Below are positions 24,190 to 46,427 of a stretch of 64,000 nt of DNA, one piece after another; positions within the stretch are counted from its first letter, which is position 1, and each line of letters begins with the position of its first letter. The stretch comes from Haloarcula limicola (GTDB taxonomy: Archaea; Halobacteriota; Halobacteria; Halobacteriales; Haloarculaceae). The translations under genes were made by a program, and so were the position numbers. Below the pieces are notes generated by a model, which was not told where the DNA came from, searched no databases, and saw nothing but the letters and a program-made list of their open reading frames with translations. The stretch spans positions 62,001 to 126,000 of the forward strand of contig NZ_WRXM01000005.1 in the NCBI RefSeq assembly GCF_010119205.1, written 5' to 3'.

Positions 24190-25125
24190 TTACTCCTCTT
24201 TCTTCTCGATATTGTCACGCATCCAGTCGACAGGGTCGTCATCAAAGCGAGGCACATCGTCTGCCTCATCAGTCGACGGTATGTCTTCCTCAGAAGGTTG
24301 CTGCTGACTCTCTGTCTCGTGTGCAGCGGGTGACGTAGTCGAGGTCCGTCCCAGTCCACTCGCCCAAGATGAGAGCGCATCGCGTTCTTCCGTCGAGAGT
24401 TCGTCCGTGAGCGACCGTGGCTCCGTGACTTCGATTGTGGCGTCGCCGACGTTACCGATATATATGGGTAACATTTCCACGCCCCGCTCTTTCCGGAGCT
24501 TGATGATGTTCTGTACCACTCGTGGGAGGTCCCCAAACTGCGCTTGAACCTCTCCGGGTGCAGGATGTGATGGAACCAGGGTGATCACGTCGCCCCATGG
24601 CGTTATCCGGAATGACCCGCCACTGGATTTGTAGCGACGAAGCGTCTCGAGAATATCCTGTGGGAATTTTCCATCCACCATGTGGCGTCGATTGGTCGAT
24701 CCGTTCTGCCACCAGACGCGTTCCCCAGCGAACGAATAGCGGCTGCCATCATAGACGCTGGGCCACAGGTCGCCTGAGGAGAGTTCATCCGGCCGGAGTG
24801 GAATACCGAACTCCGGATTGTCCTGCGGTACGAGTTCTCCATCGAGTTCGATATCGCCGACATAGATGTCGATGTAGTCATCTGACTCGTCCTCTTCGAC
24901 TCTCGTCAGTACGTGTCCATCCTCAGTGATATGAATGCGACCGCCGAGATGCTTCAGTTCTAGGAGTGTCTCGACGAGTTCGGTGGGCGGCGATGACAGC
25001 TCTAATCGGTCAGTTCCGCTGTATAACTGCCACCAGATACTGCCGTTCGGGCTGATCTGTAGACTGAATCCGCGGTAATGATTCGGCCACTCATCACCGG
25101 CAGATAGTGAGGTAATATCCCCCAT
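24190..25125 (-). CDS. divergent two-module protein
   Basis: About 311 residues from the ATG at 25125 (MGDITS); a GTG three codons earlier is possible. The first 230 residues contain two copies of the module of the neighbouring gene: WPNHYRGFSL...GGRIHITEDGHVLTRV...IYVGDIELDG (about 10-95) and WPSVYDGSRYSF...GGSFRITPWGDVITLV...LPIYIGNVGD (about 120-225). The last 80 residues are acidic and Ser/Thr rich. It is the first gene of the operon, about 200 bases downstream of the 165-residue gene. No family is known to me. Sharing a module with its neighbours suggests that they assemble together. Confidence 0.72.
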   Translation of the reverse strand: MGDITSLSAGDEWPNHYRGFSLQISPNGSIWWQLYSGTDRLELSSPPTELVETLLELKHLGGRIHITEDGHVLTRVEEDESDDYIDIYVGDIELDGELVPQDNPEFGIPLRPDELSSGDLWPSVYDGSRYSFAGERVWWQNGSTNRRHMVDGKFPQDILETLRRYKSSGGSFRITPWGDVITLVPSHPAPGEVQAQFGDLPRVVQNIIKLRKERGVEMLPIYIGNVGDATIEVTEPRSLTDELSTEERDALSSWASGLGRTSTTSPAAHETESQQQPSEEDIPSTDEADDVPRFDDDPVDWMRDNIEKKEE

Positions 25126-25333
25126 ATGATACACAGATTGAACGTTATTAGTACAGAAATAGGTTACGGTACTGAAGAATACAGAACGATGAAATGGTTT
25201 TGCTAATCCTGCTGTCCGCTTCTATTATTCTTCTATCAGAGAGGCGAGCTTAGACTCTCTGCGAGAGAATACTTCTTATTTGGCGGTCGTACTCTATCTC
25301 CTGAACATGCTGGCTACCACCACTTCAGACCGT

Positions 25334-25831
25334 TTACTCTCCGATCTTACTTTCGTCGAAACTTGCGGCGATGGTCCCGAGGATATCCTCCTGTTGTGAG
25401 TCACCATTCGGCTGCTCGTTCTCGATGAACGAAATAAGCCCATCTCTGGGGGTGCTTGCCGATTCTCCAAACTCCGTCTCGAGACGATCGATACCCGCTC
25501 GTGCATACCGAGCGAGCACTTCGAGTTGTAGCTGCGGGTCGACTAGTGCTTCAGGGTCACCTGTATGTTGATAAGCAATAGAGGCTGCAACCGCTCGATA
25601 GGTCGTCTTGTTCGCGAGGTGCATCCAGAGCATTTCACCTTGCGTGTTGCCTTCTCCCGCATACTCACTCGTATCGTAGCCCGCAGCGGTCGTTCGGTCG
25701 ATAGTTGCATACCCCACACACCCAGCGAAGACGAAGAGGTCGACGTAGGTATTGAAGAGGTCCCACTCTTCGACCATTTTGTCGTACAGCGAATGCCGAT
25801 AGTAGTTCTGTCGAATAGTTGATTCTGGCAT
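25334..25831 (-). CDS. 165-aa protein next to DndD-like ATPase
   Basis: A mainly helical 165-residue protein, two bases downstream of the DndD-like gene and so in the same operon. The N-terminal part, YDKMVEEWDLFNTYVDLFVFAGCVGYAT, resembles in pattern the small Dnd-system-associated proteins in which a helix rich in aromatic residues is followed by an AAxxGF-type turn. I give that similarity from memory and with caution. The C-terminal 40 residues are acidic. It may be the accessory or regulatory subunit of the ATPase. Confidence 0.65.
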   Translation of the reverse strand: MPESTIRQNYYRHSLYDKMVEEWDLFNTYVDLFVFAGCVGYATIDRTTAAGYDTSEYAGEGNTQGEMLWMHLANKTTYRAVAASIAYQHTGDPEALVDPQLQLEVLARYARAGIDRLETEFGESASTPRDGLISFIENEQPNGDSQQEDILGTIAASFDESKIGE

Positions 25832-25833
25832 GG

Positions 25834-27867
25834 TTAGGGCTCCGTAACCGCAGTTTCGTTTTCAATCGTTGTCTGGGGGAATGTCTCTGCACTGTCACCA
25901 GCGTCGTACTCGAGACGATACTGCTGCCCAGCAATCGCGGAAAGTTCGCTTGCAACCGGTCCTCGCCACTGTGAGTCTGTCACGAGGATGATTACCTGCT
26001 CAGCCATTTCTGGAATGACCCGGCTCACCTGTCGACGGTGGTCATCATCGAGGGCCCCGAACGGGGAGTCCATCATGATAGGATAGATACCGCCGCTGAA
26101 ATACTCTGTATCGTCGCTCGATTCGTAACGTTCTCGGGCGATCTGGACCAGACTTCCGATGAAGGTGAGACTTGCAATTTGGCGCTCACCACGCGATTTC
26201 TCTACTTCGAGATACTCGTTTTCGACCTGGTCTTTGATGTGGAGTTCAAAGGCGTCTGTAATCTCTGCCTGATATCCCTTGGTCGCGATCTCTTCGAAGG
26301 TCTGTTCGACAAGTTTATTCGACCAGTTGCGGACACGTTTTTGCAGGTCGTCAAACGATGCTTCCAGCTGTCGACGGACTGATTCTGTAGCCCGCATCCG
26401 CTTTCGCGCGAGTTCGGCCTCCTTTTTATCTTGCCGTGCTTCGTCGATATCGGTGTTTACCTCTGCCAGCTCTTCATCTAACTCTTCAATCTTGATCTCG
26501 TGGCGGACGATATCGCTTTCCGTTTCGCTGAGTTGGTCAGCCTTCGAATCTCGTGCTGACTCCAGTTCTGCTGGAGTCTCTCCGGTCTGGGGGTCAACAA
26601 CGTCTATCTTTTCGACTTGGGCGCTGATCTCACTCAGCTGTTCTGCGATCTCCTGTTCCCGGTCACGGAGTTTCGAGCGCCGTTCGAGTAGCTCTGAGAT
26701 GCGCTCGAAATAGTCGGTCCGCTCTGAATCCAGCTGGGTGAGATGTGAGATGATACGTATTGCAGCCTGATCGAACCCTTCAGTTACATCCTCTGATTGG
26801 TACGCTGTGACCTTGGCGTATGGCTCTGTGTCCGGTTCGAGCGGGCGGCCACAGAGACAGGTGCCGTCAGTTAGCAATCGGTCGATGAACTGGTTCGACA
26901 CCTCCGAGGGGAGTACACCCTCCTCGCGGAGTCGGTCGAGGTCCTTTGCCGTCTCTTCGACCGCTGGCATGGCAAAAGGGAGATGGCCCTGAGTGCTGAT
27001 CGTGTCTTCGATGTCGTCGTTAATGGCGTCGACCTCTGCGTTGATTCGTTCGAGTTCCGACTCGAGTTCTGTACGCTCTTCTTCTAACTCGGATGAATCG
27101 TCTATTTGTTCGAGTTTGTGCTTGATCTCGTCGATCTCCTCGTTTAACCGAGCTTTCGTGTCCTGGGCCGCACCAAGTGCCTGTTCTCGATCGGCTTTCT
27201 CCTCGCGAAGCGTTGTCCGTTGGTCCATCAGGGACTTGAGCTCCGTACTCGCAGCCTCCTGTAGTTCGTCTTCGAAGCGCTCCTCGACAGCCTCGAGGTG
27301 GGTGATCGAGCGCTCGATAATCTTGAGCCCCATGATATTCTGGATAGCGGCTCTGATCTCGTCTTGACTCCGCGTCTCTGAGAGGCGAGTGATATACTCG
27401 CCATCGAAGAAGAACAACGAACTCAGCCGCGTTGGGAGTATCTGTTCGATGGCGTCTTGTGGGTTATTTCGCGTGCCTCTGGTACCATCGGGTTCTGAAA
27501 ACGTCAGCGAGAGACCGTTGTCGATGATCTCCCCTTCGTAGTCGCTTGCCGACTGTTTCTGGTAGTCGACCCAACGGGTGAGTTCATAGTCGATATCTTC
27601 GTCTTCGAACTCGAGTACGGCCTCGACACGGACAGTGTCACCCGTCTCAGTCTCGGCGAACGACCCTTGACTAGCAAGTTTATCGGGCCGGAGGGTGAAG
27701 TCCACTTCGTCATATAGCACCCACGTCAGAGCGTTTTTCAGCGTCGTTTTCCCCGAGCCGTTCTGGCCGTGGACGACAGTAACGTTTTGCTCACCACCTT
27801 GTGCGAACGTAATTGTTCCCGTCCGAAACTGGCGGAAGTTCGTGAGATGGAGTCGGTGTAATCGCAT
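25834..27867 (-). CDS. DndD/Rad50-like SMC-type ATPase
   Basis: A 677-residue ABC-type ATPase with a split head. The N-terminus MRLHRLHLTNFRQF leads to Walker A HGQNGSGKTTLKNAL (about residues 34-47) and LSSLFFFDGEYITRLS (about 150). A coiled coil of roughly 330 residues follows, interrupted near residue 335 by GTCLCGRPLEPD, a degenerate zinc-hook-like turn. The C-terminal half-site has the Walker B/D-loop MMDSPFGALDDDHRRQV and VTDSQW. The FFFDGE and DSPFGALD motifs are typical of DndD of DNA phosphorothioation systems, but no DndA, DndC or DndE gene is in the window. Inference: a DNA-end or structure sensor in a restriction-type defence operon. Confidence 0.83.
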   Translation of the reverse strand: MRLHRLHLTNFRQFRTGTITFAQGGEQNVTVVHGQNGSGKTTLKNALTWVLYDEVDFTLRPDKLASQGSFAETETGDTVRVEAVLEFEDEDIDYELTRWVDYQKQSASDYEGEIIDNGLSLTFSEPDGTRGTRNNPQDAIEQILPTRLSSLFFFDGEYITRLSETRSQDEIRAAIQNIMGLKIIERSITHLEAVEERFEDELQEAASTELKSLMDQRTTLREEKADREQALGAAQDTKARLNEEIDEIKHKLEQIDDSSELEEERTELESELERINAEVDAINDDIEDTISTQGHLPFAMPAVEETAKDLDRLREEGVLPSEVSNQFIDRLLTDGTCLCGRPLEPDTEPYAKVTAYQSEDVTEGFDQAAIRIISHLTQLDSERTDYFERISELLERRSKLRDREQEIAEQLSEISAQVEKIDVVDPQTGETPAELESARDSKADQLSETESDIVRHEIKIEELDEELAEVNTDIDEARQDKKEAELARKRMRATESVRRQLEASFDDLQKRVRNWSNKLVEQTFEEIATKGYQAEITDAFELHIKDQVENEYLEVEKSRGERQIASLTFIGSLVQIARERYESSDDTEYFSGGIYPIMMDSPFGALDDDHRRQVSRVIPEMAEQVIILVTDSQWRGPVASELSAIAGQQYRLEYDAGDSAETFPQTTIENETAVTEP

Positions 27868-27874
27868 AAGTAGA

Positions 27875-28033
27875 TTACTCCGGAATCTCCTCTTCGACGA
27901 TCTCTTTTAATTCAGGGATAATATTGTGTGGCTTACGCATGTGAAGTTGCTTCTTTTCTGCACGAAGTGTGCGCTCGCGAATGCGTGCCAGCGTCTCGGT
28001 ACTAACGTCCTCTGTGTCTTCACTGTCAGTCAT
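27875..28033 (-). CDS. 52-aa charged protein upstream of the DndD-like gene
   Basis: A short gene (ATG at 28033, TAA at 27875-27877) seven bases ahead of the DndD-like start. The protein is helical and charged, with ETLARIRERTLRAEKKQLHM in the middle and an acidic end (EIVEEEIPE). The tight spacing, a good ATG and a coherent amphipathic sequence argue that it is real. It may be a small subunit or a leader whose translation is coupled to the ATPase. No family recognised. Confidence 0.6.
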   Translation of the reverse strand: MTDSEDTEDVSTETLARIRERTLRAEKKQLHMRKPHNIIPELKEIVEEEIPE

Positions 28034-28151
28034 ATACGATCACCTGACAATCTATGGGTATTAATCTGGCTGGTACGCAGTGCATGAAGTCTAGTGCAGT
28101 AGTTCTCAGTGCAGCCTTGGAGTAGCGGTTGTCTCTGTTGGGTCATGGATG

Positions 28152-29576
28152 TCACATTTGGCGCAGGTTGAACTCGCGTTTGAGTTCGCCGATGGCGCCA
28201 GCATCGGTTGGAATGCCATCAATATCGGCATCTGGGTGGTTTCGGGCCGATTCAGCGAATAGCGTGACCCGTTCGAGTTCACGTTTGATGAGATTGCGCT
28301 CGGTCGTGAACTGCGATTCGTCACTAGCCGCGTCTTCGCGGATCGCCGGTGGTGGGGCGACGACGAAATCGTGGATCACGGCGTGGTGTTTCCCCGGATA
28401 GGTTCGCAGGATGCGGCCTCGGCGCTGGACGAATTGCCGAGGGTTCGAGGAACTCGCGAGCATGTACGCAGTCCGTGTCGCCGGAACGTCCACGCCTTCG
28501 TCGAGACAGCGGATAGCGACCAATGCTTGAATTTCCTCCTTGTCGAAGCGCGATAACAAGGTCTGGCGTTCGCTTCGTGACTCATCGGCAGTAAAGCGCT
28601 CTGCACGCAAGCCAAGTTGGCTTCGAAGTCTTGAGACGGCCGCGTCGACGTGGCGTCGTGTTCGGGACGTGATGTCGCCTTCGACCGTCCCATCTCCGCA
28701 GTAGACGAGCGTGTGTTTCGTCTGCTGGTCGTATTCGAGTAACTCGACCAGCCGGTCGAGTTTTCGCTCGGCGGTCCCGACCAGTCGAGCGCGCTTGAAC
28801 AGTGCGAACTGCAGGTCCTTGTTCCCCTGGAGATCTGCATCACCGAGGTCGTCATCTGATTGGCTGATGAGGCGGGCTATCTTTTTCGAGAGGCCGAGAT
28901 ACTCGTCGGCTTCATCTTCGGTCAACTCGACGACGTGTGGGATATAGTAATACTCACAGAGTGCGCCATTTTGAATTGCCTCTGTGAGGTCGTACTCATA
29001 GACGACGCCGCCGAAGTACTCCATGAGGTCTTCGGTCCCCGCTTCATCGTAGAACCGTTCTGGCGTTGCCGAGAGGCCCAGCCGAAGGTGGATATCTGTT
29101 GGCAATGCCGATTTGAGGTGTGGCGCACCGAGGTGGTGGACCTCGTCGGCTATTAGCATGAATCGCTCGCGATTGACCCGGCTCAACACTCGCTGGAACG
29201 TCTCAGAAGCGAAGGTAGCGTGGGTTGTGATAATGACGAGACTCTCACGAACGCCCAAGTCGAACTCTGCGAGTTCACCTTCGAGGCGTTCCTGCCATTG
29301 GCGACGGCTCTCGTAGGCAAGGATCGGTGAGCCACCGAAATCTTGGACATCGTCTGCCCACTGGTCAACGAGGTGTTGATATGGGGCAGCGATGACCAGC
29401 GCCAGTCGGCCATCGTATTGCTCGGCGACGTGGGCAGCCGTCAGCAGGGAGGTAACTGTTTTACCGGTCCCAGTTGCCATCCGAAGCACGCCACGGCCAC
29501 CAGCAGCCGCCCAGCGTTGCACTGCCGCTTGTTGGTACTCGCGAGGTTCGACCCAGTCTGGGCGTGCGAATGTCAC
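28152..29576 (-). CDS. SF2 DEAH-type helicase, Dnd-restriction-like
   Basis: A 474-residue SF2 helicase beginning with GTG and overlapping the upstream 66-aa gene by four bases. Motifs: EPREYQQAAVQRW (Q-like), Walker A MATGTGKTVTSL (about residues 33-44), motif II LIADEVHHLGAP, motif III LGLSATPERF, motif V RCLDEGVDVP and motif VI QFVQRRGRILRTYPGK. Length and motif wording recall the helicases annotated as DNA phosphorothioation system restriction enzymes (memory, not checked). With the DndD-like ATPase downstream, this forms a Dnd-like restriction module that lacks the sulfur-modification genes. Codon use and GC are slightly higher than in the AddAB-like operon. Confidence 0.82.
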   Translation of the reverse strand: MTFARPDWVEPREYQQAAVQRWAAAGGRGVLRMATGTGKTVTSLLTAAHVAEQYDGRLALVIAAPYQHLVDQWADDVQDFGGSPILAYESRRQWQERLEGELAEFDLGVRESLVIITTHATFASETFQRVLSRVNRERFMLIADEVHHLGAPHLKSALPTDIHLRLGLSATPERFYDEAGTEDLMEYFGGVVYEYDLTEAIQNGALCEYYYIPHVVELTEDEADEYLGLSKKIARLISQSDDDLGDADLQGNKDLQFALFKRARLVGTAERKLDRLVELLEYDQQTKHTLVYCGDGTVEGDITSRTRRHVDAAVSRLRSQLGLRAERFTADESRSERQTLLSRFDKEEIQALVAIRCLDEGVDVPATRTAYMLASSSNPRQFVQRRGRILRTYPGKHHAVIHDFVVAPPPAIREDAASDESQFTTERNLIKRELERVTLFAESARNHPDADIDGIPTDAGAIGELKREFNLRQM

Positions 29577-32520: not shown

Positions 32521-34299
32521 ATGTCTGAAGACGCGTCAGAATCCCCGCCGGCGCCGGGATCTTCGTACTCTATAGATGACCCGTCTGTCGCGTCCACTGC
32601 GCTCGCTGAGTCGGGACAGGATTCGACTGGTCATCTACTTAACATACAGGCACAGCAGTTTGCGATCGCACAGGGACAACAAGAACTCCTCTCAGTCGAG
32701 GAGATCAAAGACCGAATCAAACTGTTGGATCACCAGCTTGAAGCAGCGCATCAGGCCCTCTTTCAGATGGGGGGAGGCGCGTTGTTTGCTGATGAAGTCG
32801 GGCTGGGGAAGACAATCGAGATCGGCATGGTCCTCAAGGAGATGAATTTCCGGGACACGCGAGATAGTTTTCTCATACTGACCCCAGCTCAGTTAGCACC
32901 CCAGTGGCAAACAGAACTCCAGGAAAAGTTCGGGCTCGACTTCGTCTGTAACTATGACGACGAGTTCCAAGGGTTCGACGCTCACGATAAGATCATCGCA
33001 AGTGTCGACACGGCGAAATCGAAAACGAACAGGGCAGATGTCCTCTCGCGGCGCTGGGACGTCCTCGTTCTCGATGAAGCCCATTACGTTCGGAATCGGG
33101 ATACAGACCGCTACGAACTCATCGAGGAACTCACCTATGGAGAGGCGTTTTTCGCCACCGCGACGCCCATTCAGAATGACATCTCCGATCTGTACAATAT
33201 TGTCGACCTTATCCGGCCGGGCATGCTCGGCACGCAGAAACAGTTCGATAACCGGTACGTTGTGGATAGTGACGATGCACAGATACAGCGTGGTGATGAG
33301 CTACAGTCGAAACTCGACCGTGTGATGATTCGGAATCGCCGTGAGCAGACGGATATCGATTTCACCAATCGAGCGGTTCACACGAACGTCTTCGAGCCAT
33401 CAACCGCTGAACGAGATCTCTACGATGCTGTCACCAACTACGTGAGGTCCAACTATTCGAGTAAGGGTGCGCGGCATCTCGTTTTATTCACGCTCCAGAA
33501 AGAAGTTGTATCGAGTCCGTATGCTGTCGAACAGACGATTGAAAACTGGGTCGGAGACGATGAGAAACGGCTGACCGCAAGCGAGGAAGACGCACTCGCG
33601 GAGATCAGCGAGAGCATCGCCAATATAGATGAGACAACCAAGCAAACGCGGTTGCGAAACGTAATCGAGACCATCCAGGAGCAAGCCGAGACGACACGAG
33701 CCGTTGTCTTCACTCAGTTCCGACCTACGCAGGACGCGATCGCTGATAGTGTCCGTGAACTCGATTTGCCGGTCCACATCGTTAACGGAGATCTGTCTAG
33801 TCAAGCGAAAGAACGCAAAGTCGCCGATTTTGAATCTGAAGGCGGTATTATGGTTGCGACAGATTCCATCAGTGAAGGACGGAATATGCAGTTCTGTAAC
33901 GTACTGGTCAACTACGACTTGCCGTGGAATCCGATGAAGGTCGAACAGCGAATCGGCCGCATCGACCGTATCGGACAGGACCGAGAAGTCCACGTTTTCA
34001 ACATGGCACTTGCGGATACTATCGAAGAACACGTCCTCGACAAGTTATTCGGCAAGATCGATCTTTTCAGCCAGTCTATCGGAGGCCTTCGAGACATTCT
34101 CTCGCGGATGGAACAGTCTGGATCGGACTTCGAACGAGAAGTCTTCGAGAAGCTCCGAAATGCAGACTCGCAGGTTGAGTTAGAGAACAACTTCGAGGAG
34201 ATGGCGGTCGACCTCGAAAAGAACACCGAAGCGGCAGAGAAGATGAACGACTTCAATCGAAGTGTCTTCGATAGCTTCGAGTTCGGAGAGAGTGCATGA
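32521..34299 (+). CDS. SNF2-family helicase (RapA/HepA-like core)
   Basis: A 592-residue SF2/SNF2 translocase. The N-terminus is Ser/Pro rich. Motif I is ADEVGLGKTIEIGM (about residues 95-107), Ia LTPAQLAPQWQTEL, motif II LVLDEAHYVRN (about 183), motif III ATATPIQND, motif IV region VVFTQFR, motif V VATDSISEGRNMQ and motif VI EQRIGRIDRIGQ. The DEVGLGKT and GRIDRIGQ wording is that of RapA/HepA and DISARM-type helicases. It is shorter than those because the usual C-terminal domain appears to be on the next gene. Its stop overlaps the next ATG by four bases. It is the first gene of a compact operon. Confidence 0.9.
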   Translation: MSEDASESPPAPGSSYSIDDPSVASTALAESGQDSTGHLLNIQAQQFAIAQGQQELLSVEEIKDRIKLLDHQLEAAHQALFQMGGGALFADEVGLGKTIEIGMVLKEMNFRDTRDSFLILTPAQLAPQWQTELQEKFGLDFVCNYDDEFQGFDAHDKIIASVDTAKSKTNRADVLSRRWDVLVLDEAHYVRNRDTDRYELIEELTYGEAFFATATPIQNDISDLYNIVDLIRPGMLGTQKQFDNRYVVDSDDAQIQRGDELQSKLDRVMIRNRREQTDIDFTNRAVHTNVFEPSTAERDLYDAVTNYVRSNYSSKGARHLVLFTLQKEVVSSPYAVEQTIENWVGDDEKRLTASEEDALAEISESIANIDETTKQTRLRNVIETIQEQAETTRAVVFTQFRPTQDAIADSVRELDLPVHIVNGDLSSQAKERKVADFESEGGIMVATDSISEGRNMQFCNVLVNYDLPWNPMKVEQRIGRIDRIGQDREVHVFNMALADTIEEHVLDKLFGKIDLFSQSIGGLRDILSRMEQSGSDFEREVFEKLRNADSQVELENNFEEMAVDLEKNTEAAEKMNDFNRSVFDSFEFGESA

Positions 34300-37200
34300 G
34301 TGTCGACGATATTGGAACGCTCAACCGGTTAGAGATCCGGCGGTTCGCTGCAACCGTAATCGAATCGTACGGTGGAACAGTCAACCGTGGGGATGGGGAG
34401 TCGTGGGACGTCACACTGCCAGGGCCACTGACCAGACTTGCTGATGATCGAGAGGTAAGTGTCGTCTTCGACCCGAAAGATCAGAAACCTGGTCGTCCAG
34501 AGCTACTCGTTCAGCCTGGGTCGCTGGCCTTTAACGAGCTACTCGAATTAGGCAGACAAGAAGTGTCGGTTGGGAAATTATATCTCACTGCAGACGACCT
34601 CCAGGTGCAGTTGCCAGATGCGGTCGACGTTTCAGAATTTGCGGTGACTGTCGGTGAGTTCGAACCGAAGCAAATGGCCCGGGCAGTGTCGTTCCATTTT
34701 CTCGTCGAGTTAGAAAGCGTCTCGTCGTTCCATCGGGAGCGCCTCGAGACGGTGTCGCTGGACCTGGCCAATGGAAGCCAGCTCCCGGAGCTCACAGACC
34801 GACTGTTAGCCCATACCGGCGCTCTTTCACGAGGACACCAGCCGACAGATATCGACCCGGACAGCGAGACGATCGAAGGGCGGTACGAGACCGCGGTCGA
34901 AGAGGTACAGACCCGTATCGATGATGAGGTCACCGAGTTAGTTCAGGAAGCCGAGGAGACGGTCACAGGGCGAAAAGAAGAGATTGAAACGGTGTACGAA
35001 CAACGACGCGAAGAACTGGAGGTTCGCATCACCGAGCAGAAAGAACAGGTGCGAAAGTGGCGTGAGAAGAAAAAGCGCGCTCGGAAATCGAGTACGCGAA
35101 AGAAATATAAGCAGAATCTCTCCAGAGCCCAGCAGGAACTACGGGAGGTCCAGCAGGCTGTTGCCGACGAGCGGGAAGCCCTTCGCGAAAAAGAGGAACA
35201 CGAGATCATCGAGACAGCTGACCGCCACAGTCTGGAGGTTGATATCTCACTCGTTGGAATGACGCTAGTCACCCACGATATTGGTGCGCTTGCCCTCTCT
35301 TTTGATGACGGAGAACGGACTGGAGAGACGACGGCGCGATATGCGCCAGCCACAGATGGTATCATTGCCTTCGACTGTGAGACCTGCGGGACCGGGTTCG
35401 ATTCGACGACCCGCCCACAGGTTTGTGAATGCGGGAGTATCGTCTGTGCTGGCTGTCTCGATGTATGTGAATCCTGTCAGGTAACCGGCTGCCCTGACTG
35501 TGACACGCCAGTTATGGCCTGTGAGTTGTGTGGCGGCGTCGAATGTCACGACTGTGGATCCCTCTGTGAGACGTGCGAGCGCTCGGTTTGCTCACACCAT
35601 ATTTCGGTCTGTACTACGAGTTCTGATCCAACCTGTTTAGCTTGTGGCCAGGAGTGTACAACGTGTACTCACTTTCACAGTGAGAGTCATCTCAGCCGCT
35701 GTTGTGTCGATCAGGAATTCTACTGCCCAGACCACACTGCAGCGTGTGATACCTGTGGCGATACCGTCTCTACGCCACAGTTGGACGACTGTACAGCATG
35801 CGGGAACTCGTTGTGCCCCGACGACCGACTGACTTGCGCGACGTGTGATGAGACGAGATGTATCGACGACGTCATCGCCTGTGATGGCTGTGGTGGCTAT
35901 CACTGCACAGAGAGTGGTCTCACATGTGGCATCTGTGCGAATCAGTTCGGTGAGGAGCACCTCTCCGCGTGCGGTACCTGTGGCGAATCAGTCTGTGAGG
36001 CTGACCGGATCGAATGCTCGGCCTGCGATGACAGTACTTGTACCGACCACGCCTCGGACTGTGTCGAATGCGATGCTGCACTCTGTCCGGATCACATCTT
36101 CGAGTGTGATTGCTGCGGTGAGTCGGTTTGTGATGACCATCTCGACATCTGTGAGACTTGCGACCGGGCTATCTGTGAGACAGACCAGACCTTCTGTACT
36201 GTTTGTGACGCAGTTACCTGCCCAGATGATACTACAGCCTGCACTGCATGCGATGAGCCACTGTGTCCTGCGCACACTTCGACATGCGAAAGCTGTGGAA
36301 CTGCGCTGTGTCCGACTGATACGCTAACCTGTAGTGAACACGAGACGGCACTCTGTGCGACCCATGCTGAACAGTGTACGCAGTGTGATGAGGTCTACAG
36401 TCCATCAGTTGGAACGACGTGTGCCCACTGTGAGGATTTCGTCTGCACTCATGATTCAACCGAGTGTGACCACGAGGGAGACGTAGTTTGTGCTGCTCAC
36501 ATTGAGTCCTGTAGCGCCTGTGGCGATCAGTTCTGTCCCTCGCATCGGACAGTGACACATGATAGCGGTGAGACGCGCTGTTTCGACCATTCGACCCGCT
36601 GCACCGATTGCAACGAACAGTTTGCATCAGATGGTTTGGCCAACTGTGCCAAGTGTGGTGAGCCTGTCTGTGATGCAGATCAAGCTGACTGTGTGACGTG
36701 TGGCAAGACACTCTGCCAGACCCATCAAGGCCAGTGTACCGTCGACGAGGCGTCACACTGTCGCTCGCATCTCACGCCATGTGCTACCTGCGACGATACC
36801 GTTTGTACCGACCACGTCACTACCTGTACTGAGTGCGGTGACGAGCTCTGTCACGAACATACGACCGGCTGTACGATGTGTGATCGCCCACACTGTGGGG
36901 ACCATCTCGAAGATTGTGCTGCCTGTACTGACCCTCACTGTGCTGACCATCGTGAACGCTGTCAGGAGTGTGATTCGTGGTTCTGTGAGCAGCATCTCCA
37001 GGAGTGCAGTGATTGTGGCGACACTGTTTGTTCGGCTGATAGCCACCACTGTGCCAGCTGCGACGAGGTCACCTGTGAGACACACAGCGGTCAGTGCGCT
37101 CAGTGTGCGGAGACATTCTGTACTGAGCATTACACGGCCTGTAGCACGTGCGAGCAGCCGACCTGTCTCGAGCATGCACAGACATGCGTTGAGGGCGGTG

Positions 37201-37673
37201 GTCGTCACTGCAGTGACCACATGTCGTCGTGTGATGTCTGTACCGACGATTCCGACCAGGGTCGCCCCCTCTGTCCAGCCCATCGTCGGACATGTATTGT
37301 TGGCCAAGAGACGCTCTGCACAGAGCATTCACACTTCGGGCCGATCGCGGAACTAGCACTCTGTGCCGACCACCTTGTCGAATGCGATATGTGTCGACAG
37401 CGGGTCGCTGAAACCGAAATCACCGATGGCGAGTGCCAGACTTGCCAAAACCTCACAACAGCAGAAGAGCAAACGCGCGGACTAACAGCCAAACTCCCAG
37501 ACGACTTCGAGTTCTCTAAGCCGGCGCTTAGTGTGAATAGTCAGTATATCGTTGCTTACGGGACGCAACTCTTCGGTTCGAACGAGATTGTGGTCGTTGA
37601 GCGCGAGAGTGGAAGGACAGTTGAGCGGTATGGCGTCGGTTGGATCGCCTGGCTTACAGGGGGGCGATTATGA
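34296..37673 (+). CDS. giant cysteine-rich zinc-finger array protein (1125 aa, about 125 Cys)
   Basis: Three regions. Residues 1-150 have a WDVTLPGPL...VVFD...PELLVQPGSLAFNELLELG pattern resembling the C-terminal domain of RapA/SNF2 helicases, as if split from the preceding gene. Residues about 185-315 form a highly charged coiled coil (VEEVQTRIDDEVTELVQEAE onward, KKKRARKSSTRKKYKQN). Residues about 370-1060 are a tandem array of some 30 units of C-x2-C-(D/G)-x3-5-C-x2-(H/D)-x5-8, period 20-24 residues. By hand count there are about 125 cysteines. Each unit could hold one zinc, in treble-clef, B-box or RING-like fashion. The last 50 residues are a short beta domain. It overlaps the helicase by ATGA and the next gene by ATGA. 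The array probably binds DNA, protein or a modified base; nothing like it is familiar to me as a known system component. Confidence 0.88.
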   Translation: MSVDDIGTLNRLEIRRFAATVIESYGGTVNRGDGESWDVTLPGPLTRLADDREVSVVFDPKDQKPGRPELLVQPGSLAFNELLELGRQEVSVGKLYLTADDLQVQLPDAVDVSEFAVTVGEFEPKQMARAVSFHFLVELESVSSFHRERLETVSLDLANGSQLPELTDRLLAHTGALSRGHQPTDIDPDSETIEGRYETAVEEVQTRIDDEVTELVQEAEETVTGRKEEIETVYEQRREELEVRITEQKEQVRKWREKKKRARKSSTRKKYKQNLSRAQQELREVQQAVADEREALREKEEHEIIETADRHSLEVDISLVGMTLVTHDIGALALSFDDGERTGETTARYAPATDGIIAFDCETCGTGFDSTTRPQVCECGSIVCAGCLDVCESCQVTGCPDCDTPVMACELCGGVECHDCGSLCETCERSVCSHHISVCTTSSDPTCLACGQECTTCTHFHSESHLSRCCVDQEFYCPDHTAACDTCGDTVSTPQLDDCTACGNSLCPDDRLTCATCDETRCIDDVIACDGCGGYHCTESGLTCGICANQFGEEHLSACGTCGESVCEADRIECSACDDSTCTDHASDCVECDAALCPDHIFECDCCGESVCDDHLDICETCDRAICETDQTFCTVCDAVTCPDDTTACTACDEPLCPAHTSTCESCGTALCPTDTLTCSEHETALCATHAEQCTQCDEVYSPSVGTTCAHCEDFVCTHDSTECDHEGDVVCAAHIESCSACGDQFCPSHRTVTHDSGETRCFDHSTRCTDCNEQFASDGLANCAKCGEPVCDADQADCVTCGKTLCQTHQGQCTVDEASHCRSHLTPCATCDDTVCTDHVTTCTECGDELCHEHTTGCTMCDRPHCGDHLEDCAACTDPHCADHRERCQECDSWFCEQHLQECSDCGDTVCSADSHHCASCDEVTCETHSGQCAQCAETFCTEHYTACSTCEQPTCLEHAQTCVEGGGRHCSDHMSSCDVCTDDSDQGRPLCPAHRRTCIVGQETLCTEHSHFGPIAELALCADHLVECDMCRQRVAETEITDGECQTCQNLTTAEEQTRGLTAKLPDDFEFSKPALSVNSQYIVAYGTQLFGSNEIVVVERESGRTVERYGVGWIAWLTGGRL

Positions 37674-38692
37674 GACCCGGTATACTACTTCCCTCCTGGT
37701 ATCATACCGGAGATGTCAGGCAGACGGTCCACGCGGCGGCTGCCGCTGGGATAGAGACGGACGAAGTCGCATCTGTCCTGAGCGATGAGATATTCGATGA
37801 TATTCCGTTACAACGCGTCAAATCGATCGTCGAAGCGATTCCGACAGATGATGACCAAGCACCGGACGTCGAAAATTCGCTCTCACAGGCTGCGACAACA
37901 GACGCGGCGGCACGGCCACCGTTGGCCAATCGATGTACAGTAACTGATCTCGAGTATCTCTCGGCGAGAGAAGCGGCCCGCATTGTCGGTCTCGTCCTCG
38001 AATTATTCGATGGGAACACTCTCAGACCACCAGCCACCGAATCCGTCGAAGCTGACCTTCTCTGGCGTCGACAGTACATGAATGTCGGGCTCAAGATTAT
38101 CCCCCAACGGACGACTGTCGGTGTCGAGTCTATCGAGGCGCTCCGCAGCGGGCAACTTGTCCCGGACGATCTGCAGAGGCCGTCCGAACTTGCTATCGTC
38201 ACGAGCGGCAGATTTGATGAGGAGATACTGGCTGAGGCTGCGAACAACGATATCCACTGTTTCGACGCTGGCCACGTCGAGGAGTGGCTACTGCGGGCAC
38301 AGTTATCGCCGGACATCGTCGGGACCCTCCTCGAAAATGGGGAGAATCACGATGGCCCGCTCACGGATTTGGTCGACGTCCCACCGATCCCAGCGCCACG
38401 AACATCTACCGACCCTCTCGAAATTGAGCGAGCCTTCGATGTCGATAGCTACAACGTCGCGGCAGAGACGACCTCATCGGAACCACAGCCACAGGAATCG
38501 GGGACCACTTCGGCCCAATCTACGGGCGAGACGAGTGCTGCGCCCTCACAAACTGACGAAGCGGATCCAGAGACAGTAGCTGATCCACTAGCGGGCTCAC
38601 AACCACCGCCTGGGAAGACAGGGACGCTGTACGCGGATCCCGATGAAGACGGAGAGTATACTGCGTTCGACGACTACCTTGATGACCTCTAA
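37670..38692 (+). CDS. Mrr-like restriction-fold protein with altered active site
   Basis: About 340 residues from the ATG at 37670, which overlaps the stop of the cysteine-rich gene. Residues about 120-215 match the C-terminal half of the Mrr-type PD-(D/E)XK domain: IIPQRTTVGVESIEALRSG, then LAIVTSGRFDEEILAEAANNDIHCFDAGHVEEWL, where Mrr has a strand, the QxK, and then TSGxFT..A...A...(I)xLxDG. Here the usual QxK reads as Q-R, and no clear upstream D-x(n)-E is seen, so catalysis is doubtful. The last 110 residues are Ser/Thr/Pro/Glu rich and disordered. Two possibilities: a nuclease with a variant site, or a structural DNA-binding module. Confidence 0.62.
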   Translation: MRPGILLPSWYHTGDVRQTVHAAAAAGIETDEVASVLSDEIFDDIPLQRVKSIVEAIPTDDDQAPDVENSLSQAATTDAAARPPLANRCTVTDLEYLSAREAARIVGLVLELFDGNTLRPPATESVEADLLWRRQYMNVGLKIIPQRTTVGVESIEALRSGQLVPDDLQRPSELAIVTSGRFDEEILAEAANNDIHCFDAGHVEEWLLRAQLSPDIVGTLLENGENHDGPLTDLVDVPPIPAPRTSTDPLEIERAFDVDSYNVAAETTSSEPQPQESGTTSAQSTGETSAAPSQTDEADPETVADPLAGSQPPPGKTGTLYADPDEDGEYTAFDDYLDDL

Positions 38693-38698
38693 CTACCA

Positions 38699-39595
38699 AT
38701 GACTGCAAGCCTCGAGGAAGTATCCACGACCGTACCGATTACCGATGGCCAGTCCGTCTCGATCGAACCAGGGCAACCTTGGCCGTCTGCCTATCGCGGT
38801 TCGAAGTATAGCCTCGTTTCTGACGAGGACTATGACGACCCCGTCGTCAAATGGAAACAACGTGATCTCGCGATCTTCACGGACCCGCCCGACGGGCTTT
38901 GGCGTGCACTCGCGTTGCTGGGAAAAAGTGGTGGCTACGGGAGCTTTCGAGTCACTGCTGACAGCGAAATCATCACGAAAGTACCCGCTGATGAGTACAA
39001 ACACGTTGAACAGGCGCCGGTAGATAGTGGCTGGATTCCAGTGTACGTCGGCCAACTTTCCGGGACGATCGATTTTGACGAAGTCGACTCCGACCCGTCC
39101 ACGCCGAGCCGACAGCAAATTAACGTCTGGACTGGCTTTCCCTTCAACCATGGTGAACGATGGAGTGTCAGCCATGAAGGGACTCTGTTCTGGAAGTGGC
39201 GAGACTATCGGTTTGAGTCGACGTTCGACCACTCGGAACTCGTCGAGACCTATCAATCGTATCGTGGTACTGCTGGGCGACTCTATCTAACCGAATATGG
39301 GCACATCTGGGTGAACGTTCCAAAGAACGACATCGCGCCAGGAAAAGAGGGGGCGATTGGCACAGCAATCAAGGACTGGAAACGGGATGCTGAAGCCAGC
39401 GGTAATACCGCGACACTTCGGTTGGTAAACCGCCGGCTCGTTGCAACGAGTCGCGATGATGACCCGTCAACGGGTCACTTTCCGATCCATCTCGGTCATC
39501 TCCGGTCCTTCGATGACGGTCTGATTCCCAAACCGGTTGTCGACGATCCCTCCTACTATCAGGCTGTTTGTGAATACGAGCAAGTCTGGGAATGA
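38699..39595 (+). CDS. two-module protein, paralogue of the gene at 23291
   Basis: A 298-residue protein, identical in length to the one at 23291-24187 and matching it through its whole length; roughly half the residues agree by eye. Both modules are recognisable: PWPSAYRGSKYSLV...SFRVTADSEIITKV...PVYVGQLSG and GFPFNHGERWSVS...GRLYLTEYGHIWVNV...HLGHLRSFDDGL. It is six bases after the Mrr-like gene, the fourth and last gene of the SNF2 operon. Because each helicase cluster has one copy, this protein is likely a shared subunit type such as a recruiter or specificity factor. No catalytic residues are seen. Confidence 0.75.
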   Translation: MTASLEEVSTTVPITDGQSVSIEPGQPWPSAYRGSKYSLVSDEDYDDPVVKWKQRDLAIFTDPPDGLWRALALLGKSGGYGSFRVTADSEIITKVPADEYKHVEQAPVDSGWIPVYVGQLSGTIDFDEVDSDPSTPSRQQINVWTGFPFNHGERWSVSHEGTLFWKWRDYRFESTFDHSELVETYQSYRGTAGRLYLTEYGHIWVNVPKNDIAPGKEGAIGTAIKDWKRDAEASGNTATLRLVNRRLVATSRDDDPSTGHFPIHLGHLRSFDDGLIPKPVVDDPSYYQAVCEYEQVWE

Positions 39596-42474: not shown

Positions 42475-45075
42475 GTGCCACAGAAATATGATTCGATAAT
42501 TACCCTGCCCGGTGGTGTCGAAAAATACACAGAGACCCTTCATCGGATGCTCAAATTTGTCGACACCGAATCACCTACTCTCGAGGAATTTGCTGAGTGG
42601 GTCCTCGAGACCTTTTCGCAAATGTCGAGTCGGGACTCTGCAGAGGATAAAAGCCGCCTTCTTCGTCGAATGGGTGCTGTGACGGTAGATAACGAGGAGC
42701 GATTTCAGCTAACTGAGTTAGGCAACCAGTTGTTGAATCAGCCACCGCAGGAAAATAGAGAACTATACTTTGAGACTCTGACAGGCCGGTATATTGGTTT
42801 TAAAACTATATTACAGGCTTTGAAACAACAGCCGGCTTCAGTTGAGAAGCTACAGACTGTCCTCCATGCCGTCCACAACGAAAACTGGGGATCAATCTAC
42901 CAAGCGGAACACCGAGTCAACTGGTTGCGGAGTCTTGGTATAGTTGAGAAAGACCAAGAGACTGTACAGCTCACACGATATGGTCAGGAGATTGCCGAAG
43001 AATATCCTTCACTAGATGTCAACATCGTTGACCTACCTGAATCTGCAATTCAGGCACCTACTAACGGGCCTGACCCACAATCGAATATCGACCTCGACGC
43101 ATTCGAAGACGACGTTACTTACTACTGGGTGAACCAGAGTAATGCCGCCGAGCGTGAGGGCAGTTATCTCCGCTCGAGCGATACATACTATACCCGTGAT
43201 CTAACGAAGCTAACCCCTGGTGACGTACTAATTCACTATTGGGACGGCGGAGTTCGAGCCTATTCGGTCGTCCAAAGCGAGGCATATGAAGTCTCGGGAG
43301 AAGAACTTGAAGGAGTAGACGATGAGGAAACGTACTGGTGTGTCGATATTGACCTCCACTCGCTTGAGCCAATTCGCGATATCGAAACGATTGCGCCTGT
43401 CCTCCGACGAGACGATATCAAGCAGGGTCGAGAAAAATACGCGATTAATGCGACTGGGGTTCAGTCGTGGTATCTCTGCAATCTCACTCCTGCTGCAGCC
43501 CAGTACCTACTTAGTACCTATCCTACTCAACCAGGTGATACGAGCCCAGACGGAGGTCGATACTTCTGGGTGACGGCTAACCCGGATATTTGGGCTCCCG
43601 AGAAAATAGCTGATTCCGACGGAGAGGAGGGTCAGGTCTTCTTTGAAGCGTTCAATTCTCAAGGGAATAAGCGGCGTATCTCCGAGGCGTTTGAGCGCGC
43701 TACTTCGGGTGACGAAGTTGTCTTCTACGAGTCGGCTCCAACTCAAGAAATCGTGGCCCTTGGAACAGTCGTGCAAGGGCTCCACGAAGAAGACGGGACA
43801 GTGGGTATGACAATTGCATATGACCGGGCAGTCAATGGCATCAATTGGAATGACCTGACTGCAGTCGACGATCTCGAGGATTCTGCGCCAATTCGACAGA
43901 ATGCCCGTGGGAGTATCTTCGAACTCGAACAGAGTGAGTACGAGACGATTCTGGCACTCGAACCTGAGCCACCCGACCGAGAAGATATCGAGCAACTCCG
44001 TGAACGACTTACTCTTCCAAGTGTCTCTATCTCGATTCCCGATGGCTTGTATTTCGACGACGAGACACGGCTTACGAGAGAGATTGAAGTTGCACTTGAA
44101 GCTGGCAAACATATTATTTTCACAGGTCCACCAGGGACCGGCAAGACCAAACTCGCCACGCACGTCGCAACCCTCGCAGCCAGGTATGATGCTGTCGACG
44201 ACTATCGATTTACAACTGCCACTGCTGATTGGACTGCCTTCGATACCATCGGAGGATATGTTCCCAATCGAGACACACACGGACAGGAACTACTGTTTGA
44301 ACCCCGCCTTTTTCTCCAGTGTTTCCGAGATGCCACTGGTGTGAAAAATGAGTGGCTTGTTATTGACGAACTGAACCGAGCGGACATAGACAAAGCAATA
44401 GGGCAGTTATTCTCCGTGCTTTCCGGTGACTCGACCGAACTCCCGTACGAACGAGATGCTCCAATAGAGGTTAAATCACTGGCTGCCGATGCAGACGATG
44501 ACGTCCTCGAGACGATCGTCTCGTCTCCAGATACATTCCCCGTGACGCCTGCCTGGCGACTGCTTGCGACAATGAACACCTATGACAAAGCGTCGCTATA
44601 CGAACTTTCCTACGCGTTCATGCGCCGATTTGCATTCATTCACGTTGGCGTTCCTGTCCTCAAAGATGACGATGGCGAACTTCGGACCTCGTTGCTTGCC
44701 CCGTCTCCTGACGAGCCGAACTACGCATCGGCTTGGCTCGACCAGTCGCCTGGTTTGGAACGCCCACTATCGAAATGGAGTACGGAACTAACCGAGGTCT
44801 GGGATCGAGTCAATGAAGAGCGGGCAATCGGGCCAGCGATTGTTCATGATATGGTTCGATATATTGCTAACTACGACGGGCGGGCACAGCCCGAAGAAGC
44901 GTTTACCAGTGCTCTCGTGACCCATGTCTATCCACAGCTGGAAGGTCTCAGGCAAGAGAAACAGAGAACGATAATCGAAGGGCTTTGTAGCAGCGACGTA
45001 CCCGTCGATACGGACCGTCTCTGGTATCAAGCTAGTGACTTCCTCGGGTTACCAGATACCCGAGATACGGAATGA
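42475..45075 (+). CDS. McrB-like AAA+ motor with N-terminal winged helices and two EVE domains
   Basis: An 866-residue GTG-initiated protein. Residues 1-185 form two winged-helix units (second ending VNWLRSLGIVEKDQETVQLTRYG). Residues about 205-340 and 360-500 are EVE/PUA-fold readers of modified bases: YYWVNQSNAAERE...GDVLIHYWDGGVRAY, and RYFWVTANPDIW...GDEVVFYESAP...IVALGTVVQG. An AAA+ domain follows with Walker A TGPPGTGKTKLA (about 550), Walker B LVIDELNRADIDKA (about 628) and the sensor TMNTYDKASL. The DELNRADIDK wording is diagnostic of McrB. Its stop overlaps the McrC gene by ATGA. EVE-McrBC is a known type IV architecture for restricting modified foreign DNA. Confidence 0.9.
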   Translation: MPQKYDSIITLPGGVEKYTETLHRMLKFVDTESPTLEEFAEWVLETFSQMSSRDSAEDKSRLLRRMGAVTVDNEERFQLTELGNQLLNQPPQENRELYFETLTGRYIGFKTILQALKQQPASVEKLQTVLHAVHNENWGSIYQAEHRVNWLRSLGIVEKDQETVQLTRYGQEIAEEYPSLDVNIVDLPESAIQAPTNGPDPQSNIDLDAFEDDVTYYWVNQSNAAEREGSYLRSSDTYYTRDLTKLTPGDVLIHYWDGGVRAYSVVQSEAYEVSGEELEGVDDEETYWCVDIDLHSLEPIRDIETIAPVLRRDDIKQGREKYAINATGVQSWYLCNLTPAAAQYLLSTYPTQPGDTSPDGGRYFWVTANPDIWAPEKIADSDGEEGQVFFEAFNSQGNKRRISEAFERATSGDEVVFYESAPTQEIVALGTVVQGLHEEDGTVGMTIAYDRAVNGINWNDLTAVDDLEDSAPIRQNARGSIFELEQSEYETILALEPEPPDREDIEQLRERLTLPSVSISIPDGLYFDDETRLTREIEVALEAGKHIIFTGPPGTGKTKLATHVATLAARYDAVDDYRFTTATADWTAFDTIGGYVPNRDTHGQELLFEPRLFLQCFRDATGVKNEWLVIDELNRADIDKAIGQLFSVLSGDSTELPYERDAPIEVKSLAADADDDVLETIVSSPDTFPVTPAWRLLATMNTYDKASLYELSYAFMRRFAFIHVGVPVLKDDDGELRTSLLAPSPDEPNYASAWLDQSPGLERPLSKWSTELTEVWDRVNEERAIGPAIVHDMVRYIANYDGRAQPEEAFTSALVTHVYPQLEGLRQEKQRTIIEGLCSSDVPVDTDRLWYQASDFLGLPDTRDTE

Positions 45076-46427
45076 GTGGTGGTTTTTCACGAGATGAACT
45101 TGCGGATGCAGTTCTTGCTGAGTTACTAACGTATCTCCAATCTGGAAGTCTCAATACAGATGTCATTACGGATGCGATCGTTCCTTCGGAGCTCGAGATA
45201 AGCGAGTGGGAGCGATTACAGCGAGTCCACTTCTGTCTCGCCCCACAGATTAGTGAGTTTTGTACGTCGATTTGGGACGATTTGCGGGGGATAAAAACGG
45301 TTACCGACAGAGAACGGAACAAAACTCGTGGCGCAGTTGAGGGACAAGTTGATTGGGGGCAGACGATTCAGACACGAGCTGAGACCGGGTTCAGTGACCG
45401 CTCTACGTTCGTCTGTTCGGCGCCAGTGTCGGAATACGATATTCCTGAAAATCGCGTTTTGAAGCGCCTTCTCTGGGAAGTCGAGCGAACTGTAGACACC
45501 CTTCGAGATGTCGATCAACCATGGCGATATGAACCGTGGAATGAGACTGACCTTGATCGCTTCCAGCGCCGCTATCGCCGTAATATCCATCTCAGTCGAA
45601 TGCCTGACGGTGAAGCCTGTACGGTAACTGGTCGTGACTTTACGGCTGCTCGGCAAGCACGAACCGCGATGTATCGTACAGCTGCTCGCTGGCTTTCTGT
45701 GCTACAAAAGATGCGACGTGAGGAATACGCCGACCCAGACGTGCAGGCTGTTCTCTCTCACTCCCTTGTATTACCGGCTACAGATGCTCGGTTGCTGGAG
45801 CTATTTACCACGTTCAAACTGGTCAAAGCACTTCAAGAGATTGTTCCTGGTCTCACACTACAACCAATCGAGAGCGGTGACTCGCCTGTTGCTCGATTGG
45901 CTAATGACGAGACTGCTGTCTGGATAGATGTCTACCACGACCAAACCGGCACTCTGTCATTTCATGAACCACTGCCTGATGGGGTTGAATCATCGCTACC
46001 GGCTGATCCGGGCTATTTCCGAGACTATGTCGCATCCCAAACCGCATATAAGCGCGTCGCTGGCCGGATGAGTGATTCAAGTCCCCGTTTGGCACTGTAT
46101 CGCGGTCGACCCGATATCGTCGTCGAGATTCGCACGAGTCAGGATAGTCAACCCACTGCCGTTCTCCTAGGCGAAGTCAAACAGACAACCCGTCAAGAGA
46201 CGTTTCGTGAAGGGCTCAAAGAGCTAATCGAGTATTGGCATCACGGCCAGTCAGCGAATCGCCGCTTAGCATCCCCTGGCGAACCAGTTACGCTTGGATT
46301 TGTCACAACCAATGGTCTCGGGGCGCGACAGAGCGCCGGCCCCTGTTTCCATGTTGATGCTGCGGGGAGCTTTCAACAGGTTCTAGAGACGCTATTTGCA
46401 CGAAGTATATTCCCCAGTATATCCTGA
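45072..46427 (+). CDS. McrC-like PD-(D/E)XK nuclease subunit
   Basis: A 451-residue protein translationally coupled to the McrB-like gene. The N-terminal 240 residues are a helical stalk-like region of the McrC type. The C-terminal domain shows GRPDIVVEIRTS (acid, about residue 345) and AVLLGEVKQTT (E-x-K, about 366), an intact PD-(D/E)XK site, then an HHGQSANRRLA helix. It supplies the cleavage for the EVE-McrB translocase. It is long for McrC and lacks the usual zinc site. No third gene follows; the next unit is on the other strand. Confidence 0.85.
   Translation: MSGGFSRDELADAVLAELLTYLQSGSLNTDVITDAIVPSELEISEWERLQRVHFCLAPQISEFCTSIWDDLRGIKTVTDRERNKTRGAVEGQVDWGQTIQTRAETGFSDRSTFVCSAPVSEYDIPENRVLKRLLWEVERTVDTLRDVDQPWRYEPWNETDLDRFQRRYRRNIHLSRMPDGEACTVTGRDFTAARQARTAMYRTAARWLSVLQKMRREEYADPDVQAVLSHSLVLPATDARLLELFTTFKLVKALQEIVPGLTLQPIESGDSPVARLANDETAVWIDVYHDQTGTLSFHEPLPDGVESSLPADPGYFRDYVASQTAYKRVAGRMSDSSPRLALYRGRPDIVVEIRTSQDSQPTAVLLGEVKQTTRQETFREGLKELIEYWHHGQSANRRLASPGEPVTLGFVTTNGLGARQSAGPCFHVDAAGSFQQVLETLFARSIFPSIS

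Follow-up and report, generated by a model that had tools for sequence, protein, structure and literature searches.

A split SNF2-family helicase with a long, length-variable array of predicted zinc sites in Haloarcula limicola

In Haloarcula limicola, the gene of a very cysteine-rich protein lies between those of an SNF2-family helicase and an Mrr-like protein, which raises the question of what such a protein does in this position. The gene, called Z, and its neighbours H (the helicase) and R (the Mrr-like protein) are situated in a stretch of 64,000 nucleotides (contig NZ_WRXM01000005.1 of NCBI RefSeq assembly GCF_010119205.1, positions 62,001 to 126,000 of the forward strand), referred to as the window and numbered from its own first letter. 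An initial annotation, made from the sequence alone, had described a tandem array of zinc units in Z and guessed that it binds along DNA or forms a scaffold that holds nuclease and helicase. We found that Z joins the missing half of a helicase to an array that changes by whole units, and we consider it moderately probable that H and Z are together a DNA translocase, with the ladder docking R and other partners in a restriction-like defence system; in this reading we infer zinc binding, the H-Z complex, docking and defence alike. The core of the locus is as follows.

32521 to 34299, plus strand: H, SNF2-family helicase of 592 amino acids (aa), helicase half only (SNF2-rel_dom 7e-32, Helicase_C 1.8e-19)
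34296 to 35360, plus strand: N-domain of Z (residues 1-355), consisting of an alpha+beta part, a coiled-coil hairpin (191-310) and strands (314-349), from structure model and hhalign
35376 to 37445, plus strand: predicted zinc-ladder array of Z (residues 361-1050), with the 15-aa unit C-x2-C-x4-C-x2-(H/D)-x3 and 76 half-sites
37524 to 37637, plus strand: small C-terminal beta domain of Z (residues 1077-1114), from alignment and structure model
37670 to 38692, plus strand: R, degenerate Mrr-like protein whose homologues match Mrr_cat; the Asp is kept and Q/E-x-K is lost (alignment A4)

The Z open reading frame (ORF), 34296-37673 on the plus strand, is open throughout and encodes 1125 aa with 51 His and 125 Cys, exactly the number of Cys that had been estimated. 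The stop of H at 34299 and the start of Z at 34296 form a four-nucleotide overlap of the ATGA type, which is kept in 13/13 intact loci of the long form described below. A candidate ATG of R at 37670 overlaps the Z stop at 37673 in the same way, so that R probably starts there and not at the TTG at 37640. Both overlaps bear out the initial annotation, which had Z translationally coupled on its two sides. H has an SNF2 core with intact ATPase motifs (GLGKT, DEAH and QRIGR are all present), ends after the helicase core and has DrmD, BrxH and ZorD as its nearest models.

The second half of such a helicase is found at the front of Z. RapA-type SWI2/SNF2 and BrxHII helicases are described, in the consulted parts of PMC12839542, as an SNF2 motor followed by alpha+beta domains with a long coiled-coil hairpin. 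The structure model of Z contains helices at residues 191-261 and 265-310, in agreement with the coiled coil that had been noticed ahead of the array. In hhalign comparisons, whose E-values come from pairwise runs and are not database-calibrated, the N-domain of Z matches the C-terminal parts of four fused SNF2 helicases (probability 93.8, E 1.8e-7, 257 columns), proteins whose genes adjoin H-type helicases in bacteria (99.6, E 2e-24, 312 columns) and short forms of Z (100). Because the N-domain matches the C-terminal halves of helicases, H and Z make up one RapA/BrxHII-type helicase in two chains, and the N-domain of Z is the split-off C-terminal half of such an SNF2 helicase; the comparison with the four fused helicases also supports the likeness to an SNF2 C-terminus that had been seen in the sequence. 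Among the matches listed, a partner ORF beside the helicase passed a script test in 64 of the best 80 helicase-scan loci, and four more of these 80 encode fused helicases of 912-983 aa. One short-form relative has a weak Pfam match to RapA_C (0.028). The bacterial partners, as a wider family, are matched by the YqhG profile (99.5), and in Bacillus safensis (locus L092) the partner of H is YqhG itself (E 2e-114). Judged from L092:11506-12303 and other loci of Bacillus type, the Pfam family YqhG, to which no function is assigned, resembles a separately encoded C-terminal half of the helicase YqhH.

Behind this N-domain, the array covers 690 aa from its first to its last CxxC. Its half-sites, counted as non-overlapping C-x2-[C/H/D], predict about 38 four-ligand zinc sites; the initial annotation was right about a tandem array of about 690 residues, but its count of roughly 30 zinc units was too low. 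When the strict units of all sequences above 850 aa are pooled (370 units), His provides the fourth ligand in 66% of them and Asp in 34%. The window array contains 23 strict units of the form CxxC-x4-CxxH/D-x3-C, compared with a mean of 0.1 and a maximum of 2 in 1000 shuffles of the same residues, which rules out chance composition. An antisense or frameshift artefact is ruled out as well, since stops are frequent in the opposite frame and the reading frame is preserved among homologues. Autocorrelation of Cys in the array reaches 95, 97 and 89 at lags 15, 30 and 45 (about 22 expected), and all spacings of the largest direct-repeat family in the DNA of the region are multiples of 45 nucleotides. 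Tandem Repeats Finder reported no 45-nucleotide array in this DNA, which implies that the window's units are old and diverged. In alignment A3 (nine sequences), 18 of the 20 invariant columns are array cysteines. A Pfam scan at E up to 1 gave no family for the window's array, and no such array turned up in searches of open-access literature listings or in the searched parts of PMC10853773 and PMC12839542. Locus L003 comes from Haloferax lucentense SVX82, a strain treated in PMC11001535, the consulted parts of which do not mention the locus.

Homologues of Z occur in 74/391 genomes of the class and array forms in 23/391, several copies of the latter being plasmid-borne. Three forms can be distinguished. 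Proteins of the long-array form have about 1030-1245 aa when intact, and those of the medium-array form have 675-676 aa, or 907-946 aa in a variant present in L055 and L056. The short forms, of 386-437 aa among the ORFs listed, carry one or two CxxC motifs but no array. The C-terminal beta domain is conserved in the long and medium forms. Twenty-four haloarchaeal array loci were fetched, 16 long (window included) and 8 medium. R is near Z in all 24 and H adjoins Z in 22; the two loci without H (L053, L054) are also without the front of Z. H is interrupted and Z lies in two pieces in L047, H is frameshifted in L055, and the two array fragments in L066 and L067, neither of which has H, appear to be remnants. 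Outside the haloarchaea, H-Z arrays were found in Pacearchaeota (L142, L152), a Nanoarchaeota metagenome-assembled genome (MAG; L153), a KSB3 bacterium (L119) and a Gemmatimonadetes MAG (L098), with the Cys-rich array ORF directly behind the helicase. The array was not matched in phage records nor in the viral contigs searched, and none of 80 viral loci with distant helicases, taken from the H alignment, has an ORF of at least 80 aa bearing at least 10 CxxC/H motifs.

Comparison of these forms indicates how the array evolves. In nine aligned pairs, the indels inside the array measure 120, 60, 60, 60, 60, 60, 15 and 45 aa, all multiples of 15, and the other indel runs of at least 5 aa (37, 37, 5 and 6 aa) all fall outside it. 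L003 and L042, with 91% identity, are distinguished by a single block of 120 aa, and L051 has DNA-level duplications three units apart. The array of Z thus gains and loses whole 15-aa units. Such unit-wise change of length might be the trace of an arms race, in which the array is a decoy or sensor surface for viral proteins, the binding of which switches on H, the helicase A (see below) and R; a degenerate R could then serve as sensor. Repeat arrays, however, change in length without any arms race and the ligand positions are conserved here, so that we regard this explanation as quite unlikely.

The pattern of lost half-sites gives a lead on how the units are joined. Co-losses were counted in 16 sequences of the long form, after L055, L056, the medium forms, short fragments and arrays from outside the haloarchaea had been set aside. 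Loss of the CxxC of unit n coincides with loss of the CxxH/D of unit n+1 with odds of 10.8 (76 co-losses, against a mean of 46.8 and a maximum of 61 in 2000 permutations), and eight divergent sequences give odds of 11.9 (45; mean 30.3, maximum 39); these statistics ignore the kinship of sequences and the duplication of units. Background lags are also raised (odds 1.2-9.3), with A_n and A_n+2 in second place at 6.7 and 9.3. Simple pairings of half-sites, within the same unit or of a CxxC with the next CxxC, were rejected with odds of about 3, like background lags. The pattern suggests interlocked fingers, in which the CxxC of unit n would be paired with the CxxH/D of the next. We tentatively propose, as a possibility we would not yet favour, that the array is an undescribed zinc solenoid of interlocking treble-clef-like fingers, in which each zinc is shared between a CxxC and the CxxH/D of the following unit and to which rungs could be added without end. 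Such a solenoid would serve as a ruler or dock of tunable length, coupling SNF2 motors to Mrr-type nucleases either as a separate subunit (haloarchaea, DPANN, bacteria) or fused to the nuclease (other archaea).

Structure models point to a regular fold. The full-length model of Z has a pLDDT of 72.7 and a pTM of 0.38, with array values of 80-88 near residues 370-530 and 880-960 and lower values between, and residues 356-640 modelled alone reach a pLDDT of 91.0 and a pTM of 0.65 as a regular strand-loop-strand-turn repeat. The best solved match of the array in Foldseek is to the LIM domains of LMO2 (E 6e-3, probability 0.97). The best VIA match is to the FYVE domain of Vps27 (53 of 67 residues aligned, rmsd 2.9, Z 6.3, a range in which a match may reflect a mere common arrangement), and further matches are other FYVE domains, RIM/Slp zinc fingers, PHD and LIM. 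A sequence-profile search of the PDB with the array also gave Vps27 FYVE first (E 0.0062) and RING fingers next, so that two methods, structure and sequence profile, put FYVE first or near the top with modest values. The searches with the array alone listed FYVE, LIM, PHD and RING, and the array may also resemble families outside these lists. In a BFVD search, predicted structures that resemble the array model came from giant viruses (Edafosvirus, E 7.5e-10) and from phages, the phage proteins being annotated as amidoligase or LIM-domain protein.

FYVE, LIM, PHD and RING folds mostly bind proteins or lipids. The haloarchaeal arrays carry a net charge of -11 to -18 per 100 residues, and their Lys+Arg content is mostly 3-6% (8.6% in L079), compared with 8-14% in most of their own N-domains. 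Together, the acidic array and these nearest folds fit protein docking better than DNA wrapping, and the earlier guess that the array binds along DNA is not favoured. As a rival explanation, the units could still line DNA or RNA as a nucleic-acid-binding clamp that makes the H-Z motor processive or substrate-specific. The array is indeed attached to a DNA translocase, the arrays of DPANN archaea are basic (+7.1 to +8.8 per 100; two bacterial arrays are neutral), and halophile proteins can bind DNA despite their acidity; against this stand the acidity and the low Lys+Arg content of the haloarchaeal arrays in comparison with most of their own N-domains, and the mainly FYVE/LIM/PHD/RING-like folds, which make the clamp unlikely. 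Basic DPANN arrays may contact DNA, and the function of DPANN H-Z pairs may differ from that of the haloarchaeal systems. These pairs (L142:11619-13127, L152:11691-13223 and L153:6853-8184) have basic arrays and no Mrr match beside them.

If the array docks proteins, R is the first candidate. The initial annotation had called R Mrr-like: the window's own R has no Pfam match to Mrr, but its homologues do. The medium-form R matches Mrr_cat at 3e-20 and the nuclease part of ZorD at 1.7e-20, and D...Q-x-K is kept in 3/3 aligned sequences of this form. The link between array and nuclease is found again elsewhere. An array profile run against 294 genomes of the phylum matched in 8, of which 3 have Z (our own included) and 5 have a fusion protein of 539-556 aa with zinc ribbons, Mrr_cat and, at the C-terminal end, an array of this kind.

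L247:5284-6927, L248:4792-6435, L249:5973-7592, L250:6681-8336, L251:6421-8091: fusions of Mrr, two zinc ribbons and the array, from the array-profile search

In three scanned fusions Mrr_cat was matched with E 8e-13, 1.6e-14 and 1.2e-17, and the sequences read have D...E-x-K; the fusion is patchy (11/149 genomes of one archaeal class). Array and Mrr domain in one polypeptide independently support a functional link between the array and an Mrr nuclease. The Z N-domain is absent from all five fusion genomes searched and no match to H lies within the fetched stretches around the fusions, so that the array counts as an independent module. The initial annotation had held that its guess would be refuted by an array found alone in genomes without the helicase: this is in part the case, as the fusions in these five genomes lack the Z N-domain, but their context is still that of a DNA nuclease.

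Further genes accompany the long form.

38699 to 39595, plus strand: X, 298 aa, no assigned fold; in 16/16 long and 0/8 medium loci (alignment A5)
20334 to 23288, minus strand: A, superfamily 2 helicase resembling the PbeA helicase region; in 14/16 long loci and no medium locus
23291 to 24187, minus strand: X', paralogue of X with 52% identity (alignment A5)
24190 to 25134, minus strand: Y, with a WPSxY..GGSFRIT-type repeat as in X; in 14/16 long loci and no medium locus

X, X' and Y have a repeated domain in common (WPSxYRG ... GGSFRIT ... PVYxG), with conserved His and Glu residues and no Pfam match. In L077, a Haloquadratum MAG, one strand carries H-Z-R-X together with a Y-like ORF, X' and A, which ties Y, X' and A to the H-Z-R-X system. 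In the window, Y-X'-A lies on the minus strand behind a PbeC-like gene. The interval between the two groups (25834-29576, minus strand) holds this gene, which encodes an ABC ATPase, and the gene of a helicase that matches dnd_restrict_1 with 578.3 bits (cut-off 600); a small ORF at 25334-25831 occupies the PbeD position. At 42475-46427 on the plus strand, an McrB-like AAA ATPase with an EVE domain is followed by a 451-aa partner without Pfam match, possibly an McrBC-like pair. Because the PbeC-like, dnd_restrict_1 and McrB/EVE genes and a type II restriction endonuclease-like gene share the window, H-Z stands in a defence setting.

This setting would be coincidental if H-Z were a housekeeping complex like RapA or YqhH-YqhG, active in transcription recycling or DNA repair, with the array as a stabilising zinc store or redox element. 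The bacterial relatives are indeed YqhH-YqhG in Bacillus-type genomes, where an H homologue is likewise followed by a partner gene, and yqhH is reported in UV resistance of B. thuringiensis in the consulted parts of PMC10054049; YqhG differs from Z in its size of about 265 aa and has no array. The patchy occurrence and plasmid copies of the array forms, the linked Mrr gene and the neighbours of the short forms argue against this explanation, which we hold to be decidedly unlikely. Among the short-form loci, the DUF499 ATPase is found in L063 and L075 and the DUF1156 methyltransferase in L006, and the ORF families that hold them occur in 12/21 and 14/21 short loci, respectively; the 373-, 404- and 329-aa ORFs of short loci, for which PglZ and iSTAND were in question, had no Pfam match.

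DUF499 and DUF1156 genes are a mark of BREX-related systems in the parts of PMC12839542 consulted, and H-Z loci share features with BREX-related (BR) type-3 systems: the SNF2 motor is followed by alpha+beta domains with a coiled-coil hairpin, here in Z and not in H, and array-free haloarchaeal H-Z pairs stand beside both DUF genes. The window differs in that its helicase is split over two genes, that the zinc ladder, R, X, Y and A are added, and that the Pfam scan of window ORFs gave, for the ORFs covered, no match to either DUF. ZorD of type I Zorya, an SNF2-Mrr fusion, resembles H in its helicase (4e-42) and the medium-form R in its Mrr end, whereas here three separate genes have Z in the middle and the long-form R is degenerate; ZorA, ZorB and ZorC had no match among the scanned window ORFs. 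DISARM DrmD is the best NCBIfam and PADLOC match of H, but the score of 255.7 bits is far under the cut-off of 950. H also matches a DrmA model at 2.9e-40, and DrmB and DrmC had no match among the scanned window ORFs. With PbeABCD and the CxC ABC-ATPase phosphorothioate-linked systems (consulted parts of PMC6459918 and PMC10853773), the window shares the likeness of A to PbeA and a PbeC-like ATPase. It differs in that the HKD motif is not seen in its A and is absent from 6/7 A sequences checked (the seventh has a lone H-x-K stretch), and in that other long loci have no PbeC match. H-Z-R belongs with the known SNF2 helicase-nuclease restriction systems as a variant; the array itself may be a new zinc solenoid.

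On the reading that we prefer, a translocase with a docking ladder, the terminal zinc motif of a helicase would have grown into the ladder of predicted zinc sites in Z. H, as ATPase motor, and Z, with its alpha+beta and coiled-coil domains, would assemble from overlapping genes into one translocase of double-stranded DNA. The array would be a stiff, acidic, length-variable solenoid of the FYVE/LIM/PHD/RING-like class that docks proteins and does not wrap DNA. R, catalytically intact-looking in the three-gene medium form and degenerate in the window's form, would be docked on it, probably with X, Y, X' and helicase A, and the motor would carry a nuclease or sensor along invading DNA, with restriction-like defence as the result.

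Several observations weigh against this reading. In the long-form R the Asp is kept and Q/E-x-K is gone in 11/11 aligned sequences, and no active nuclease was identified in the window's subtype, so that the window's system has no proven nuclease. The earlier guess of a scaffold for nuclease and helicase accordingly stands as regards the link of the array to an SNF2 helicase, an Mrr-type gene and Mrr fusions, but not as regards a nuclease motif in this subtype. The R profile had no match in L142, L152, L153, L119 or L098 (the L152 stretch stops 198 bases past Z), from which it follows that the nuclease link is not universal, and the array fragment of L066 has no R. The fold matches of the array are weak, the N-domain of Z matches YqhG less well (90.9) than its other partners, YqhG compared directly with the fused helicases gives 0.9, and no PDB match to RapA was obtained, the searches with the whole Z model being swamped by coiled coils.

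If the reading is true, the locus would encode a restriction-like motor whose C-terminal half became an expandable, metal-built scaffold with a length tunable by whole units. It would also link four loosely connected sets, namely the BREX-related helicases, ZorD, YqhH-YqhG and the Mrr nucleases, and would turn YqhG of Bacillus into a helicase subunit open to testing. With its three genes, the H-Z-R form is compact enough to be tested directly.

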